From positions 1 through 26,684 of the IMG/VR virus record IMGVR_UViG_3300027736_000216: a stretch of 26,684 bases of DNA; one strand, given 5' to 3'. Every line of letters begins with the position of its first letter. Position 1 is the first letter of the stretch. Below the pieces are notes generated by a model. That model did not search any database. It had not been told where the DNA came from and worked only from the letters and a program-made list of their open reading frames with translations. The stretch is from a virus. A program made the translations under genes and the position numbers. This document shows, piece by piece, positions 6,216-22,530 of this stretch.

Positions 6216-6503
6216 ATGCGAGAAAAAGAAATTGAAATTTATTTTGATTGGGCTGTGCAGCGCATCGGTGGCCGGACTTGGAAGTTTACTTCGCCCGGAC
6301 GCAAAGGTGTAGCAGATCGCATTGCGTGTTTACCCGATGGCCAAACTTGGTTTGTGGAATTGAAAACCAAAGGCGGCAGATTGTCAGAACTGCAAAAATT
6401 ATTTGAGGTGGACATGCTGTTGTTGAATCAGAACTACACATGTTTATGGACTAAGGAACAAATTGATGGTTTCATTACGACCCTATCAAGAGACAGCCGC
6501 TGA
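6216..6503 (+). CDS. VRR-NUC domain nuclease
   Basis: A stand-alone VRR-NUC protein of 95 aa, the usual size for phage versions of this PD-(D/E)XK endonuclease family. The family signature is plain: GRKGVADRIACL, with the catalytic aspartate in ADR, then the strand FVELKTKGGRLSELQ carrying the E-x-K pair, then a helix. Such proteins cut branched or flapped DNA and in phages typically sit beside an SNF2-type helicase, as here. ATG 6216 is chosen over an in-frame TTG at 6150 because the latter would lie in the promoter and code for an atypical hydrophobic extension. No clear Shine-Dalgarno precedes it. It overlaps the helicase gene by 38 bases. Confidence 0.92.
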   Translation: MREKEIEIYFDWAVQRIGGRTWKFTSPGRKGVADRIACLPDGQTWFVELKTKGGRLSELQKLFEVDMLLLNQNYTCLWTKEQIDGFITTLSRDSR

Positions 6504-7788
6504 CTTTCTCTTTGAGCATGACCGCGCCATGATCTTGGCGCCAGTGGGTGCGGGTAAGACCGCCATCACACTGACGGCCATGTGGGAAATGATCCGCGAC
6601 GGGCATGTCAAGCGCTGGCTGGTGCTGGCGCCCAAGCGCGTCTGCACCGACGTGTGGCCAGTCGAGCGCCCCAAATGGGCAGACCGCTTGAGCATGAATT
6701 TGTGCGTTGGGACACCAAAACAGCGCTTAGACGCCCTTAAAAGCCCCGCCCAAGTGGTTGTGACCAACTACGACAACTTGCAGTGGCTGGCCGAGCAGAA
6801 GCTAAACTTTGACGGCGTGGTGTTTGACGAACTGACGCGCCTGAAGAACCCATCCGGCACACGCTTCAAAGCGTTCCTCAAAGTGGTTGACCCCATGACC
6901 GTTCGCTGGGGCTTGACCGGCTCGTTCACCAGCAACGGCCTTGAAGACGTCTTTGGCCAGTGCAAGATCGTCGATCAGTCATTGCTAGGGCGCAGCAAAG
7001 GCGCGTTCATGCAGACGTACTTTGTGCTGATTAACAAGGAGTTTGGCGAATGGGCGCCGCGTGTAGGGTCGCTTGAGAAGGTAATGAACGTGATCAAGCC
7101 TGCCACATTTGTCTTAGAAGCAGGTGAGTATAAGGACAAGTTGCCGCCTTTACATACTGTGGAACTGGCCTGCACCATGGATCTGACGCCCTACAACACG
7201 ATGAAGAAAGACTTTGTGTTGGAAGGCATCACAGCCGTCAACGCCGCCGTTGTTACGGGCAAGCTACAACAACTGGCGTCGGGGTTTGTTTACGACACAA
7301 AGACCACGCCGTCTGACTCACCAGGCAAGTTTAAATCCACCCAGCGCCCGATTTGGTACAGCCTGCACAAGTTTGAACGCCTTGAAGAATTACTTGACGA
7401 GAACCAGCATGCCAACACTATTATTGTGTACAACTACCAAGAAGAACTTGCCGAACTCAAGCGACGCTTTGGACACTTACAAACCCTTGACGATACCGAC
7501 GCCATCAAGCGATGGAATGATGGAAAAATCAGGCTACTGGCCGTCCATCCGAAGTCAGCAGGCCACGGCCTCAACCTCCAACACGGCGGCTGTCACATGG
7601 TGTTTTTGTCATTGCCGTGGAGTTTGGAACTATACGAACAGACCATTGGTCGTTTGCACCGCAGCGGGCAGAAACACGCTGTGTGGTGCTACGTGATGCT
7701 GACCAGTAAAACGGTAGACGAAAAAATTTGGGCGGCCTTGCATGACAAGCGCGCCATATCTGACATTGCAATGGAGGAACTTAAATAA
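6466..7788 (+). CDS. SNF2/DEAD-type DNA helicase
   Basis: A 440-aa superfamily 2 ATPase. Residues seen: RPYQ near the N-terminus (Q8, Q-motif position), Walker A APVGAGKT at 25-32, motif II DEL at 121-123 followed by TRLKNP, as in SNF2 proteins, and motif VI QTIGRLHRSGQ beginning at residue 392 with arginines 396 and 399. Phage members remodel or branch-migrate DNA during replication and recombination. They lack the extra chromatin domains of eukaryotic SNF2. ATG 6466 is preferred over TTG 6463; both share the AAGGA at 6453-6457 inside the VRR-NUC gene. Its TAA overlaps the ATG of the 30-codon gene (TAATG). With VRR-NUC it probably forms a helicase-nuclease pair. Confidence 0.93.
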   Translation: MVSLRPYQETAADFLFEHDRAMILAPVGAGKTAITLTAMWEMIRDGHVKRWLVLAPKRVCTDVWPVERPKWADRLSMNLCVGTPKQRLDALKSPAQVVVTNYDNLQWLAEQKLNFDGVVFDELTRLKNPSGTRFKAFLKVVDPMTVRWGLTGSFTSNGLEDVFGQCKIVDQSLLGRSKGAFMQTYFVLINKEFGEWAPRVGSLEKVMNVIKPATFVLEAGEYKDKLPPLHTVELACTMDLTPYNTMKKDFVLEGITAVNAAVVTGKLQQLASGFVYDTKTTPSDSPGKFKSTQRPIWYSLHKFERLEELLDENQHANTIIVYNYQEELAELKRRFGHLQTLDDTDAIKRWNDGKIRLLAVHPKSAGHGLNLQHGGCHMVFLSLPWSLELYEQTIGRLHRSGQKHAVWCYVMLTSKTVDEKIWAALHDKRAISDIAMEELK

Positions 7789-18031: not shown

Positions 18032-19562
18032 TCGTTGGACTCAAAATGAGTTCAGCGCCCATGATGTCAATCTTTACGGGATCAGTGCCAGACACTTCAT
18101 AGACGCGATCACGCAGCTTCAGCGTCATTCCCAAACGCCGCCAAAACACACGCTTGTAATATTCACCAATTTTTCCGATTGGTGACCAATGCTCATTTGA
18201 CCAAGTGTGACCACCATCATCCGACCAACGAAGCATGACTTGTGGATCACTGCCTTGAGTAACAGGCGTTGGGTCATCACTAATCAAATAATCACCATTT
18301 TCGGTAATCAAATATTCGTCGTTTTCGGTCAAAAGATATATGGTTTCAGAAATCATTGACCCATTTAAACCAACGCCAGATTCAATATCTAATTGCAAGC
18401 TGTGTTGGGTGGTACGTTTTAAATTGTTTTGGCCAGTTGGCAGCGCACGCCATGTGCGAAGCCACTTTTGAATGTCGCCGTTGTCGCTGTAATCAGTTAA
18501 ATCAAATGCGTAAACATTGCCGTTTTCAAAGTCGCCAATGAGAATCTTGTTGTTAAACGCCATTTGGCAATTGCCTCGATGCCGAGTAAACGCGCCGTTG
18601 CTCCAACCCGCACGCTCATGCCAGGCTTGCGTTGCCACATCGTAAACCCAAGTGGTGTTAGCGCTAGGAAAAACCAGTACATAAAAACTGTGGCCGTCTT
18701 GTTGGTATGTGTAGCCAATTGCGTCTGACATACCGTCATACTGCTGAATCTGCCATTCGACTGCGTGAGTTGAGATGCGCTGGCCAGTGTAGCCGTTGGC
18801 GCGGTAGACAATACCTTGGCCACGGCGGTCACGGCCAAGCCAAAAAAGTCCGTTGTCCATTTTGGCTATAGAGTAGGGAGCAGCACAACCCAATTCGTTA
18901 AACGCGCCTTGAATGCGTTGGAGAGGAAAATCGGTTGCGCCAGAGTCAAACCAAACTTCAATTGAGTTTGTGCCAAATGCCCATATTTCTCGAAAATTGG
19001 ACACCACGGCAAGCAGGCCGTCAGGCGAGCCTTCGGTGCTAGCAAAATCAAGAGGGTCAATGGATGTGCCGTCAAGCAATGTAGTAATCCACAGTTTTTG
19101 GCTGTTTGGTTCATTGAACACAAAGTAGCCATCCAAGTAAGCCACAGTTACAGCACCAGGAAAATCAGGATCAGTAATCTGACCAAAACCACCTGTATTG
19201 GCGTTATAGATGTAGCTAGGGCCATTACAAGCAATAAACAATTGCGTGCCGTTGTCAGCCATGCTGACCGGCCCAGTACCACTTACAGAACCAATTAGCG
19301 TGGCTGTGTAGCTGTTGTTGATCTTGTAAAGTTGAGTGCCAGAAACAACAAAGCCAGTACCATCATCCGATGAAAACGCCCACAAGCCACGGATCGGCCC
19401 GGTGCCAACGGTATTGAGTAACTTTAAACCTGGTGCGCGGTTAAGAAACGCTGGCTCTTTACCACCCTCGGGAATAATCTCGGGGAACAAATTGACCATG
19501 CGGTTGTCTGCCGCATTGACAGACCGCACTACATAAGACGATCCAAGAATCGGCGTTTTCAT
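18024..19562 (-). CDS. P22 gp10-like tail accessory (phage stabilisation) protein
   Basis: The 512-aa protein is a little longer than P22 gp10 (472 aa), which seals the portal with gp4 and gp26. Family features: the opening MKTPILGSSYVVRSVNAADNR then RMVNLFPE, and KEPAFLNRAPGLKLL. WASP-like beta repeats follow (GPIRGLWAF, GSVSGTGPVSMADNGTQLFI, YLDGYFVFNEP, FREIWAFGTNSIEVWFDSG, YDVATQAWHERAGW), consistent with a beta-propeller. Residues 409-430 hold an inserted 8-residue repeat (YLLTENDE, YLITENGD, YLISDD). ATG 19562 is preferred over TTG 19565; it overlaps the gp4-like stop (ATGA). Confidence 0.92.
   Translation of the reverse strand: MKTPILGSSYVVRSVNAADNRMVNLFPEIIPEGGKEPAFLNRAPGLKLLNTVGTGPIRGLWAFSSDDGTGFVVSGTQLYKINNSYTATLIGSVSGTGPVSMADNGTQLFIACNGPSYIYNANTGGFGQITDPDFPGAVTVAYLDGYFVFNEPNSQKLWITTLLDGTSIDPLDFASTEGSPDGLLAVVSNFREIWAFGTNSIEVWFDSGATDFPLQRIQGAFNELGCAAPYSIAKMDNGLFWLGRDRRGQGIVYRANGYTGQRISTHAVEWQIQQYDGMSDAIGYTYQQDGHSFYVLVFPSANTTWVYDVATQAWHERAGWSNGAFTRHRGNCQMAFNNKILIGDFENGNVYAFDLTDYSDNGDIQKWLRTWRALPTGQNNLKRTTQHSLQLDIESGVGLNGSMISETIYLLTENDEYLITENGDYLISDDPTPVTQGSDPQVMLRWSDDGGHTWSNEHWSPIGKIGEYYKRVFWRRLGMTLKLRDRVYEVSGTDPVKIDIMGAELILSPTNA
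18273..18338 (-). repeat. Octapeptide repeat in the gp10-like gene
   Basis: Three consecutive 24-base units encode YLLTENDE, YLITENGD and YLISDDPT (residues 409-432; the span given covers YLISDD). The DNA units are close but not identical. A similar unit (NLLTESGD, NLVQEDGG) appears in the 54-aa gene at 26125-26289. Confidence 0.8.
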
Positions 19563-20275
19563 CAATAATTACCGGCATAGATGTTGAAACGCTGGCGGTT
19601 GGCCACCAATGCGTAAGGCAGCGCCATCACGTCATCAGGGTTGTTAATGCGTTTTAAGTCACGCTTAGAAGTCATGGCAATGCGCTGCACTTGCTGGCTT
19701 GGCTCAACACCAAACTCAGGAGCAAACTCCATGGCCAAGTTGTATGTAAACGCACGCAAATAGCCTGGTGGGTAATACATGACCGTTGACAAATCAGCGG
19801 GCCGCGTTAGTTCTTCAACCGATACAAAGTGAAACTCCAAGTTTTGTGTGGGCCTTGGATAAAGGTATATCTCAATATCAGGAAACGTCATGTTTACCCA
19901 CATAACTTGTGGGTAGGTAGAGGTCACGGTCTTAACAGCAATACCGTTGTACTGCTGTTGATTGATCATTTTGATGCCATACGACACGCCATTGGGTGCT
20001 TTGAAATATGTAGCATCGTCCAATAAAATCGGGCGCAGGCCAATGAAGTCACCAGTTGGGCCAAGCGTGCGGCTAATAAAACTTGCAGGCCATGTAAAGA
20101 TTTGATCTTGCGTAGAAAACACAGCCAAACGCTCTGTATTCCAGCTGTCAATCATTTGGTTGAACGCCATCAAAGCGTCTTGAGAAACCGATGCAGAGGG
20201 CGTTTCACCTTCAGCAAGCACGCCAAGGAGCCGAAGCGCCCGATTGATTTGTTCGCCAGCGGTGTACGTTGTCAT
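19562..20275 (-). CDS. P22 gp4-like head-tail adaptor
   Basis: At 237 aa it is longer than P22 gp4 (166 aa), with the extra length after the common part. The start MTTYTAGEQINRALRLLGVL then VSQDALMAFNQMIDSWNTERL is the helical adaptor motif that docks on the portal. The middle part (QPQVMWVNMTFP-like strands, IEIYLYPRP) and MYYPPGYLRAFTYNLAMEFAPEFG are standard in longer phage forms. GAGG lies seven bases before the ATG. It overlaps the gp10-like gene by 3 bases, as in P22, where gp4 and gp10 assemble in order. The function is well supported by order and sequence. Confidence 0.92.
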   Translation of the reverse strand: MTTYTAGEQINRALRLLGVLAEGETPSASVSQDALMAFNQMIDSWNTERLAVFSTQDQIFTWPASFISRTLGPTGDFIGLRPILLDDATYFKAPNGVSYGIKMINQQQYNGIAVKTVTSTYPQVMWVNMTFPDIEIYLYPRPTQNLEFHFVSVEELTRPADLSTVMYYPPGYLRAFTYNLAMEFAPEFGVEPSQQVQRIAMTSKRDLKRINNPDDVMALPYALVANRQRFNIYAGNY

Positions 20276-20277
20276 GC

Positions 20278-20460
20278 TTAAACCTCAGTTGCGGTTTTTC
20301 TACGGCGTTTAACTTCCAGCACGTTCACAGGAGCCGCTTCAGGTTCAGAAAGCGTATCTGGATTATAGCGAGTCCAGCCATTTTTTTCATCCATTTCAGC
20401 CTCTAAATCCATGGTTGCCACTTTAGCGCCATGAACAGGGTGAGAAAGATAAATGATCAT
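20278..20460 (-). CDS. Small hypothetical protein (60 aa)
   Basis: The protein starts MIIYLSHPVHGAKVAT and contains DEKNGWTRYNPDT, then a basic end EVKRRRKTATEV. A short HPxHG start with an E-x-x-x-x-GW unit is recurrent in small phage proteins between coat and connector genes; no function is known. No Shine-Dalgarno precedes ATG 20460. A strong hairpin ends nine bases upstream, so expression may be low or need another mechanism. Two bases separate it from the gp4-like gene. Confidence 0.75.
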   Translation of the reverse strand: MIIYLSHPVHGAKVATMDLEAEMDEKNGWTRYNPDTLSEPEAAPVNVLEVKRRRKTATEV

Positions 20461-20468
20461 AATTTAAG

Positions 20469-20493
20469 AATGGGGGTTGTTTAGACCCCCATT
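20469..20493 (-). terminator. Hairpin copy 1, after the 105-aa gene
   Basis: A 9-bp stem (AATGGGGGT / ACCCCCATT) with the 7-base loop TGTTTAG (plus strand), five bases past the stop of the 105-aa gene. On the transcribed strand it is followed by CTTAAATT, a poor U-run. The repeat is almost identical to copy 2 at 20830-20856, including flanking bases. It is likely a partial terminator or a 3'-end stabiliser. Confidence 0.6.
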
Positions 20494-20497
20494 TGGT

Positions 20498-20815
20498 TTA
20501 GACAACAACAGGATACTGCCACTTAGTGCCGTCTGCAATAAACAGCTTGCCAAGGCCAGTAGCATTGGTAGTAGTAGCCAATGAGCCAACTGGCGCAGTG
20601 GTGGTGGTGGTGTTAGCTGTAATTGCGCTTGTCAAGAAATACAGACCAGCAGTAGCGTTTGCAATTACTGGGCCTGTAGTTGCAGTCGAAGTAAACGTGC
20701 CGCTAACGGTAGCGCTTGTTGAAGTAGAGCCAGTGATGGTAGCGCCAGTGATGGTGGTTCCAGCAACAAGTTCTGGGTCAGAATACGCAACGCCTACGGG
20801 TTTGGAATTGGCCAT
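20498..20815 (-). CDS. Threonine-rich virion protein, candidate capsid decoration (105 aa)
   Basis: The body is a run of short Thr/Ser/Ala strands (ITGATITGSTSTSATVSGTF), and the C-terminus GLGKLFIADGTKWQYPVVV resembles the end of small phage head- or fibre-associated proteins. It lies between two copies of one hairpin, two genes after the coat, where head decoration proteins are common. ATG 20815 has AAAGGA seven bases upstream. No enzyme motif is seen. The role is inferred from position and composition. Confidence 0.78.
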   Translation of the reverse strand: MANSKPVGVAYSDPELVAGTTITGATITGSTSTSATVSGTFTSTATTGPVIANATAGLYFLTSAITANTTTTTAPVGSLATTTNATGLGKLFIADGTKWQYPVVV

Positions 20816-20829
20816 AATTGTTCCTTTAA

Positions 20830-20856
20830 AAATGGGGGTTGTTTAGACCCCCATTT
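20830..20856 (-). terminator. Hairpin copy 2, after the 134-aa gene
   Basis: A perfect 10-bp stem (AAATGGGGGT / ACCCCCATTT) with loop TGTTTAG (plus strand), three bases past the stop of the 134-aa gene. The transcribed strand reads on as TTTTTAAAGG if the last stem bases are counted, so a modest U-run is present and intrinsic termination is plausible. The AAAGG that follows is the ribosome site of the next gene. Confidence 0.7.
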
Positions 20857-20859
20857 AAT

Positions 20860-21264
20860 TTAGCCCGCGATGCGGTACAAAGTCCAAGAACCATCGCCGG
20901 TTTTACGAGCGCGGAACAAAGCGCCGGTGTTTTCCAACACCACCATGTTGCCGAGCAAAGTCCAACCAGTAGCGGTAGCCAATGTGCATTGATATGCAGT
21001 GTCATCGACAGCAACTGCAAAGTCAAATGCAGCGTTGACTTTTTGGGCGCTGCTAATTGCGGCTTCCAAATCGGCAACGGTAGGCAACGTCACGACTGTG
21101 TCAGCCGAGGTGTTGCTAGTGATCAACCCGATGGCCATTTGAGCGCCAGTTAGGGTTGCGGTAGTTGCAGTAATTGCAGTAGGAGCGCCTTGGACAATCA
21201 GTTGTGCTTCGCTTGTATTGCCTGCGCCAACTTGATAGCCACCAGAACCATTAGGTAATGCCAT
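20860..21264 (-). CDS. Small virion protein, candidate capsid decoration or head fibre (134 aa)
   Basis: Directly downstream of the coat gene. N-terminal low-complexity strands (GGYQVGAGNTSEAQLIVQG, ITATTATLTGAQMAIGLITS) lead to a domain with TVVTLPTVADLEAAIS and VDDTAYQCTLATATGWTLLGN, ending GDGSWTLYRIAG. The TLP...G.W....G.W pattern is that of small beta domains on phage heads and fibres, where the strand TLPT is followed by aromatic strands. ATG 21264 has AAGGA at the proper distance. The exact family is not recognised. Confidence 0.8.
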   Translation of the reverse strand: MALPNGSGGYQVGAGNTSEAQLIVQGAPTAITATTATLTGAQMAIGLITSNTSADTVVTLPTVADLEAAISSAQKVNAAFDFAVAVDDTAYQCTLATATGWTLLGNMVVLENTGALFRARKTGDGSWTLYRIAG

Positions 21265-21297: not shown

Positions 21298-21311
21298 ACC
21301 CCCGAAGGGGT
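21298..21311 (-). terminator. Short hairpin with UUCG loop after the coat gene
   Basis: On the transcribed strand ACCCC-TTCG-GGGGT forms a 5-bp stem closed by a TTCG tetraloop, an exceptionally stable loop in RNA, eight bases past the coat stop. TTCATTTTG follows, an incomplete U-run. Probably a partial terminator that lets coat be made in excess over downstream products. Confidence 0.6.
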
Positions 21312-21318
21312 ATTCAGA

Positions 21319-22530
21319 TTAGCCCCAGATGCGGCAGGCCATTTGTGGACGGATTGTGCTAAAACCGTACAAAACGTCAATACGGCAAGGCATACGGTCA
21401 TTGTTGATGTCGTACTGGCGCACGATACGCAAAGAAATACCGTTGTGAACTGCGCGAGCAGCCATGTCAACACCTTGGGGCAACAGCAAGTCAGCAGTTG
21501 CAAAGGTGATGGCATCCTTGTGATAGACCAAGTTCTGAGCGTACTGAGTAGATGCAGCGCCAACAAAGGTCACAGTTGCGCCAGTTGCAGGCAACACATC
21601 CACAGTAGCCAAAGCGTTTGCAGCGGAGTACATAGGAGCCACAGTCACAGTCCAAGTGCCAGATGAAGCGGTTGCATCAGCCAAAGCAACGAACTGGAAC
21701 AACGAACCAGTAGATTCACGGGTTTGTGGATTCACAGCATTGCAAGCACTGATTGTGAACACGTCACCAGCTTTAATGGTAGTAGACACTGAACCTTGTT
21801 CCAACAAAATGGAAGTTGCACCTTCGGCGGTAACGCCGGGGGTCTTTACCAATGTTGTTGAGGTTGTGAGGCGTGAGCCAGTAGTGTGCTGCTTGATTGA
21901 CTGAGACATGTTGATCTCGTCAAAGCCCAACACGCCAGTGCCCATCATGCCGTTCTTAAATTGCTTGCTGATAGTGTCTGTAGGATTGAACAGACCTTTC
22001 ATGCCTTCAACCAAGCCAGCGTTAGCAGCAGGGTTCACGGTAGCGTAACGTGGGGACATCACGGCCGCGTTTTCATTCAGCTTCTGCTGGGCTTGGAGCA
22101 AGACCAAAGAAGTAGAAGGAGTAGTGCCTGGTGTACCAACGGTGTTACCGATTGATTTGTACGCATTGGCCACGTCTGCATCAATAGAAGATGCCAACTG
22201 GCTAATACGGGGCTTTAACACACGCTCAGCGAAGTCATCCAATTGCATGGTCAATTCAGCAGATGTGAAGTTGACACCGATGTGCTTTTGGCTGGCAACG
22301 GTCAAAGTGGTGAACTGCTCGTTGTCGTCTTGCACTTGCAAGGCGGCGCCGTCAGTAACCAAAGCGCGGTCAGGTAAACGGATACGCAGTGTAGAGCCGA
22401 TCTTTGCGCCTTCAACAGCAAAAGAGTCGTCATACTGGCGGTTCACGTTGCGGGTGATCACAAGGTTGTTCTCAAGGATTTCGAGAGACTTACGTGTGAT
22501 CATGTCAATGGTCAGAATACTATTAGACAT
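21319..22530 (-). CDS. Major capsid (coat) protein, P22 gp5-type
   Basis: The 403-aa length compares with 430 aa for P22 coat; the protein has the HK97 fold. Recognisable family features: the N-terminal helix TIDMITRKSLEILENNLVITRNVNRQ (pattern), GAKIGSTLRIRLPDRALVTDGAALQVQDDNE, the strand VASQKHIGVNFTSAEL, then LDDFAERVLKPRISQLASSID. The later KAGDVFTISACNAVNPQTRESTG stretch resembles the inserted beta domain. The end, IRQ-YDINNDRMPCRIDVLYG, is common to the group. The start has AAAGGA six bases before ATG 22530. The gene follows the scaffold gene after 30 bases. Confidence 0.93.
   Translation of the reverse strand: MSNSILTIDMITRKSLEILENNLVITRNVNRQYDDSFAVEGAKIGSTLRIRLPDRALVTDGAALQVQDDNEQFTTLTVASQKHIGVNFTSAELTMQLDDFAERVLKPRISQLASSIDADVANAYKSIGNTVGTPGTTPSTSLVLLQAQQKLNENAAVMSPRYATVNPAANAGLVEGMKGLFNPTDTISKQFKNGMMGTGVLGFDEINMSQSIKQHTTGSRLTTSTTLVKTPGVTAEGATSILLEQGSVSTTIKAGDVFTISACNAVNPQTRESTGSLFQFVALADATASSGTWTVTVAPMYSAANALATVDVLPATGATVTFVGAASTQYAQNLVYHKDAITFATADLLLPQGVDMAARAVHNGISLRIVRQYDINNDRMPCRIDVLYGFSTIRPQMACRIWG

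Follow-up and report, generated by a model that had tools for sequence, protein, structure and literature searches.

Why should a compact phage operon hold what is almost the same hairpin twice, on both sides of one small gene? The question arises in a freshwater P22-like podovirus (IMG/VR record IMGVR_UViG_3300027736_000216), of which the whole stretch of 26,684 nt was analysed and is referred to below as the window. The hairpins sit within the late structural operon. The initial annotation of this DNA had offered two explanations, i.e., that the 105-aa gene between the hairpins was inserted by recombination between the repeats, or that the pair steps down expression gene by gene after the coat.

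Twin hairpins in the late operon

All genes around the hairpins are on the minus strand, in the order scaffold, P22-type coat, hp1, G1, hp2, G2, hp3, G3, gp4-like, and gp10-like (Table 1). The 105-aa gene (G2) does stand after the coat gene, as had been described, but it is the second gene after it and not the first. The gp4-like gene also matched Pfam PF11650 (P22_Tail-4), below the cut-off. No clear host was indicated; relatives were found in MAG contigs of Rhodoferax and other, mostly proteobacterial, taxa. Elsewhere in the window, a tailspike-like gene with a pectate-lyase fold (PF12708; 23673-24980) is located closely upstream of the scaffold and coat genes, which is unusual for P22-like phages, and an open frame of 441 codons lies on the plus strand opposite the late genes (6463-7788), where no clear gene is seen on the minus strand.

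Table 1. Features around the hairpins in minus-strand order; positions are those of the window
Feature	Position	Strand	Description	Basis
Coat	21319..22530	-	P22-type coat protein, 403 aa	Pfam PF11651 P22_CoatProtein, E 2.3e-37; PHROG 283 major head protein
hp1	21298..21311	-	Hairpin behind coat gene; ACCCC-UUCG-GGGGU, then UUUCAUUUUGU	Terminator scan; matching position in relatives
G1	20860..21264	-	134 aa; probable capsid spike/decoration protein	AlphaFold2 model; match to Pa223 spike
hp2	20830..20856	-	Terminator-like hairpin; AAAUGGGGGU-CUAAACA-ACCCCCAUUU, then UUAAAGG	Repeat, fold, position, covariation, T tract in relatives
G2	20498..20815	-	105 aa; probable short head fibre/decoration protein	Relatives
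hp3	20469..20493	-	Twin of hp2 within native hp3 flanks; AAUGGGGGU-CUAAACA-ACCCCCAUU, then CUUAAAUUAUG	
G3	20278..20460	-	60 aa	Placed like P22 orf69 on the map (between coat and gene 4)
gp4-like	19562..20275	-	Head-tail adaptor, 237 aa	PHROG 637 head-tail adaptor Ad3, E 4e-9

Hp2 and hp3 lie in a direct repeat of 39 nt (20463-20501 and 20825-20863) with 92% identity, and the hairpins themselves have 25 identical bases in common, where none would be expected by chance. The 23-nt core ATGGGGGTTGTTTAGACCCCCAT was present in exactly two copies in the window, even when three mismatches were allowed in the search for further copies that the initial annotation had called for. It never occurred in 100 dinucleotide shuffles (0.00 expected), and a chance repeat was thus ruled out. 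The near-identity of the pair was therefore confirmed, and so was its closeness to stop codons, as hp2 begins 3 nt past that of G1 (134 aa) and hp3 4 nt past that of G2 (105 aa). The conservation of the loop, given as TGTTTAG, also stood but its strand did not; since transcription runs along the minus strand, the loop reads CUAAACA in the RNA.

In the transcript orientation (minus strand), hp2 folds with -14.6 kcal/mol (z -2.4) and hp3 with -13.9 kcal/mol (z -2.75). Both have the stem of an intrinsic terminator (GC-rich, at least 5 pairs, short loop), with 10 pairs in hp2 and 9 in hp3, each including 5 GC pairs, and a loop of 7 nt. Besides the UUCG hairpin hp1, they were the only strong intergenic hairpins of the late operon in a scan of the whole window. 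The stem is followed by CCCCCAUUUUUAAAGG in hp2, which is also directly upstream of the G2 ribosome site, and by CCCCCAUUCUUAAAUU in hp3, where the T tract is interrupted (ATTCTTAAATT). Across the window, terminator-like sites were no more frequent than in shuffles, and no Rfam family was matched.

Junction hairpins among relatives

IMG/VR was scanned with G2, the coat protein, and the hairpin pattern, which gave 206 loci that have both the coat and the gp4 end; of these, 162 were distinct and could be used. These records are the closest relatives and an uneven sample; the window itself and a few records of named phages are among them. A hairpin was counted when its score was at least 10, with distinct intergenic sequences as the unit and dinucleotide shuffles as the control. 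A GC-rich hairpin was present at the hp1, hp2, and hp3 junctions in 74, 84, and 98% of the distinct intergenic sequences, respectively, versus 4, 6, and 12% of the shuffles, and was usually located directly 3' of the stop codon. Duplicated terminators had been called rare in compact phage operons, a view that is not supported here. Relatives usually have hairpins at all three junctions, so that duplicated hairpins are the rule in this group, and HK97 is annotated with putative terminators flanking its major tail gene.

Most loops of the relatives read UUCG at hp1 and hp2, and at hp3 CTAATCA, UUCG, or UACG; CTAATCA was found in 64 of the 142 strong hp3s, with varying stems. A sequence-specific function of the loop was considered and is weakened by the UUCG and UACG loops at the same sites. 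The stems covary. In a set of 21 distinct junctions (19 from the hp2 position of relatives and the two window copies), which was picked by hand for variety and is therefore biased towards hairpins, 8 of the 10 pairs were changed on both sides, and 90% of the cells pair versus 37-63% when the helix was slid. Moreover, the sense strand carries a T tract downstream of the GC core: T exceeded upstream A in 80 versus 1 distinct sequences at hp1 and in 89 versus 5 at hp2, with a weaker strand bias in the hp3s as a group (54 versus 29). The cultured relative Rhodoferax phage P26218, which grows on Rhodoferax sp. IMCC26218, likewise has a UUCG hairpin after its coat gene.

Neither hp2 nor hp3 is obligatory, since 23 of the 162 records, all from one lineage, have a 105-like G2 without hp2, and hp3 is absent in 11 records with other G2 bodies. 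Two loci (L150 and L160) represent a different solution of the region; their post-coat gene starts just 2 nt past the coat stop codon, and they yielded none of the three hairpins. The possibility that the hairpin is a widespread mobile element was rejected, as 15 of the first 22 viral loci listed for GGGGGTNTAAACNACCCCC were coat-region relatives. The remaining 7 differ in their flanks, gave no hit with any of the five proteins of the region, and seem to be hairpins that are unrelated or arose by chance.

Position, conservation, stem covariation, and T tracts are best read as marks of terminators that would step expression down after the coat gene, in agreement with the second of the two initial proposals, and it is from these features that we infer termination, read-through, and an expression gradient. 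Hp3 may have a role other than termination, because its T tract is poor, being interrupted in the window, and the strand bias of the group is weaker there. An explanation that we consider unlikely, if still a serious one, is that the hairpins are mRNA-processing or 3'-end-protecting elements, i.e., that read-through is free, the message is cut or trimmed, and the G5/C5 stem shields the coat, G1, and G2 messages. It would suit the stable UUCG or 7-nt-loop stems directly behind the stop codons as well as the poor T tract of hp3. However, protection alone needs no sense-strand T tract, and this is kept at hp1 and hp2 in nearly all relatives.

The slot between hp2 and hp3

G1 has a conserved N-terminus and a variable body in relatives. 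Its AlphaFold2 model (pLDDT 84) matched the capsid spike of Pseudomonas phage Pa223 (9ny6_C; Foldseek E 6.9e-05) with low TM scores (0.43/0.22), and on the model G1 is likely a capsid spike or decoration protein; PHROG 673, named head scaffolding protein, was weakly matched by some G1 relatives. G2 consists of the N-terminal motif MANSKPVGVAYSDPE, repeats of the ITGAT/ITGST type, and a C-terminal domain. It had no match in Pfam, PHROG, or PDB, and its AlphaFold2 model was too poor to be used (pLDDT 53); the repeats suggest that it is probably a short head fibre or decoration protein. Proteins in the G2 slot nearly always open with a motif like M.N.K.VGVAYSDPE, followed by swapped bodies of several forms (105-like, 135-163 aa, 198-204 aa, and others). 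About 16 N-terminal residues are common to them, the bodies are unrelated, and the 5-residue repeats of the ITGAT/ISGST type vary in number. This build resembles that of a short, modular head fibre whose capsid anchor is conserved.

There were 338 genome pairs, selected for hp3 junctions at least 90% identical, in which the G2 bodies were less than 58% identical; mean identity in these pairs was 94% for the hp3 junction, 50% for the G2 body, and 87% for the coat end. The hp3 junction is thus short and conserved and borders genes that are swapped, as a homologous joint would, and the exchange at the slot that had been supposed is borne out by these swapped bodies. As judged by comparison of the genomes, the slot between hp2 and hp3 is a hypervariable swap site. 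Relatives without the 105-aa gene but with one hairpin, which the initial annotation had proposed to look for, were found as well: in L165 and L297 (phage DSL-LC05), G2 is absent and G1 is directly followed by G3, with one hairpin between. It had also been stated that the initial reading would fall if relatives always had the gene, with unrelated intergenic DNA around it; the gene is not always present, and the intergenic DNA is not unrelated.

A moron is an ORF with its own promoter and terminator that one phage has and a related phage lacks. G2 with its hairpin resembles a moron in being present or absent between the same neighbours (L165, L297), and a hairpin that may act as a terminator follows G2 in most relatives. 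Minus-strand promoter-like matches in the window were not above those in shuffles. The site is a swap slot rather than a moron because it is nearly always filled. Two other arrangements were observed in the region. L124 has two tandem G2-type genes at 493-1214 after the coat stop, with an own UUCG hairpin before each, and L284 has about 500 bp of extra sequence separating G3 from the gp4-like gene, which marks another point of insertion.

It could be argued that the hairpins are conserved mainly as short homologous joints for phage recombination and not for termination. In genome pairs with different G2 bodies, the hp3 and hp2 junctions exceed every neighbouring gene in likeness, the hp2 core is exact in genomes with G1 just 41-42% identical, and the idea of conserved boundary sequences (PMC3029335) points the same way. 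We nevertheless regard this as improbable, since the compensated stem changes and the kept T tracts imply selection on RNA structure, and the group is too varied in its stems and loops for them to serve as one common joint. The conservation of the junctions may also result from swapping rather than cause it.

The letter-for-letter twin calls for an explanation of its own. The native hp3 junction ACCAAATGGGGGCTAATCACCCCCATTCTTAAATT (35 nt), with the loop CTAATCA, was found exactly in 42 fetched loci, some of which overlap on the same contig, and either exactly or with two extra 5' bases in 15 genomes compared with the window. The window junction ACCAAATGGGGGTCTAAACAACCCCCATTCTTAAATT has the native flanks with the loop and closing pair of hp2, and differs from the native form only in the loop region. 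L025, which is closest to the window by coat and G2 (its G2 is 99% identical), has the CTAATCA loop in hp3 and a variant CTAAACA-type hp2, and none of the fetched genomes was a second one with two CTAAACA hairpins. By these comparisons, the identity of hp2 and hp3 is a derived, late change private to the window genome. As the hp2 loop sits inside native hp3 flanks, hp3 probably received a copy of hp2, in a patch of ~20 nt. L174 has an independent twin pair of 25 nt with a different sequence. The likeness of hp2 and hp3 was 0.61 within genomes versus 0.55 between genomes (0 of 5000 permutations), in a test that ignores phylogeny and relatedness.

The first of the initial proposals, in which recombination between two identical hairpins brought in the 105-aa gene and left the twins as insertion scars, is very unlikely in view of these results. 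The empty sites with one hairpin in L165 and L297 are what it would predict. However, the hairpins of L025, the closest carrier of the same gene, are not identical, hp2 is missing from the 23 relatives noted above that carry a 105-like gene, and it is in the window genome alone that these two copies are identical; on the first two grounds, insertion between pre-existing identical repeats was rejected as the main account. The start codon of G3 is 8 nt after hp3 (window 20460-20470) without a clear Shine-Dalgarno (SD) sequence, and most relatives are likewise without one, as an SD-like motif was present between hp3 and the G3 start in just 24 of 102. A role of hp3 in controlling G3 translation, as an operator to which a phage protein binds via the conserved CTAATCA loop, would fit this scarcity and the recurrence of that loop on varying stems, but can hardly be credited when many relatives have UUCG or UACG at the same spot and the loop is changed in the window itself.

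Putative leaky termination and known systems

The account that we favour, and hold to be probable but well short of certain, is that leaky intrinsic terminators step expression down after the coat gene, G1, and G2, within gene-plus-hairpin cassettes, with a later copying of hp2 onto hp3. Polymerase leaving the strongly needed coat gene would meet a hairpin after the coat gene, after G1, and after G2, and at each of them a fraction of the transcripts would end, or the upstream message would gain a protected 3' end. The mRNA level would then fall from coat to G1, to G2, and to the low-copy neck genes (gp4, gp10). A capsid-surface gene and the hairpin behind it would form one cassette that is exchanged, gained, or lost among phages. 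Later, a short hp2 patch, comprising the loop with its closing T-A pair, would have replaced the native hp3 loop in the window genome.

Hairpins of this kind are already known, since stem-loops or putative terminators are annotated behind the coat genes of P22, phage L, and HK97. In P22 (RefSeq NC_002371, 6102-6119), the stem-loop behind the coat gene is noted as 'similar in location to stem-loops in phage HK97 and phage lambda'. The hairpins of the window resemble those of P22 and phage L (MW013502, putative terminators) in lying in the same operon, right after a P22-type coat gene and before orf69/gene 4, and phage L has the same hairpin design (CAGGGGCUUCGGCCCCUUUCUU). Hp1 is the hairpin behind the coat gene, hp3 the one before G3 and gp4, and hp2 an extra copy between added genes. 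In contrast to the one stem-loop of P22, the window group has three in series, behind the coat gene, G1, and G2, with the genes between them exchanged. The authors of the phage L study described intra-operon terminators of unknown role and suggested partial termination (PMC8022706). In the structural operon of HK97, putative terminators are located after gp5 and on both sides of gp12, a likeness by annotated position behind or around high-copy structural genes. Leaky termination has been measured in PhiX174, whose capsid operon alternates genes and terminators with a stepwise fall of mRNA (PMC9135205), and at T-phi behind the capsid gene 10 of T7 (PMC5592923). The working principle would be the same, although these phages are unrelated and termination was measured there, whereas it is deduced for the hairpins of the window.

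More tentatively, and with more doubt than belief, it can be proposed that the leaky terminators, each closing a cassette, double as homologous joints, which would allow clean swaps of capsid-surface (head-fibre) genes with expression undisturbed, and that they are homogenised within a genome by repeated short-patch copying, a form of concerted evolution seen in the window and independently in L174.

The junction hairpins themselves are thus of a known kind, and only the CTAAACA letter-for-letter copies are peculiar to the window genome. What is new is the series of hairpins in this uncultivated group, the swap slot between them, and the signs of hairpin-to-hairpin copying. The stem-loops behind the coat genes of P22, HK97, and lambda are annotated without an assigned role. 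A natural experiment is offered by some 160 distinct records, in which the hairpins in series number one, two, or three and the genes between them were gained or lost, so that both the expression-step and the swap-joint ideas can be tested by comparison and reporter assays. At the same time, uncultivated freshwater phages of a group common in IMG/VR have been found to contain a swap slot for probable capsid-surface proteins.
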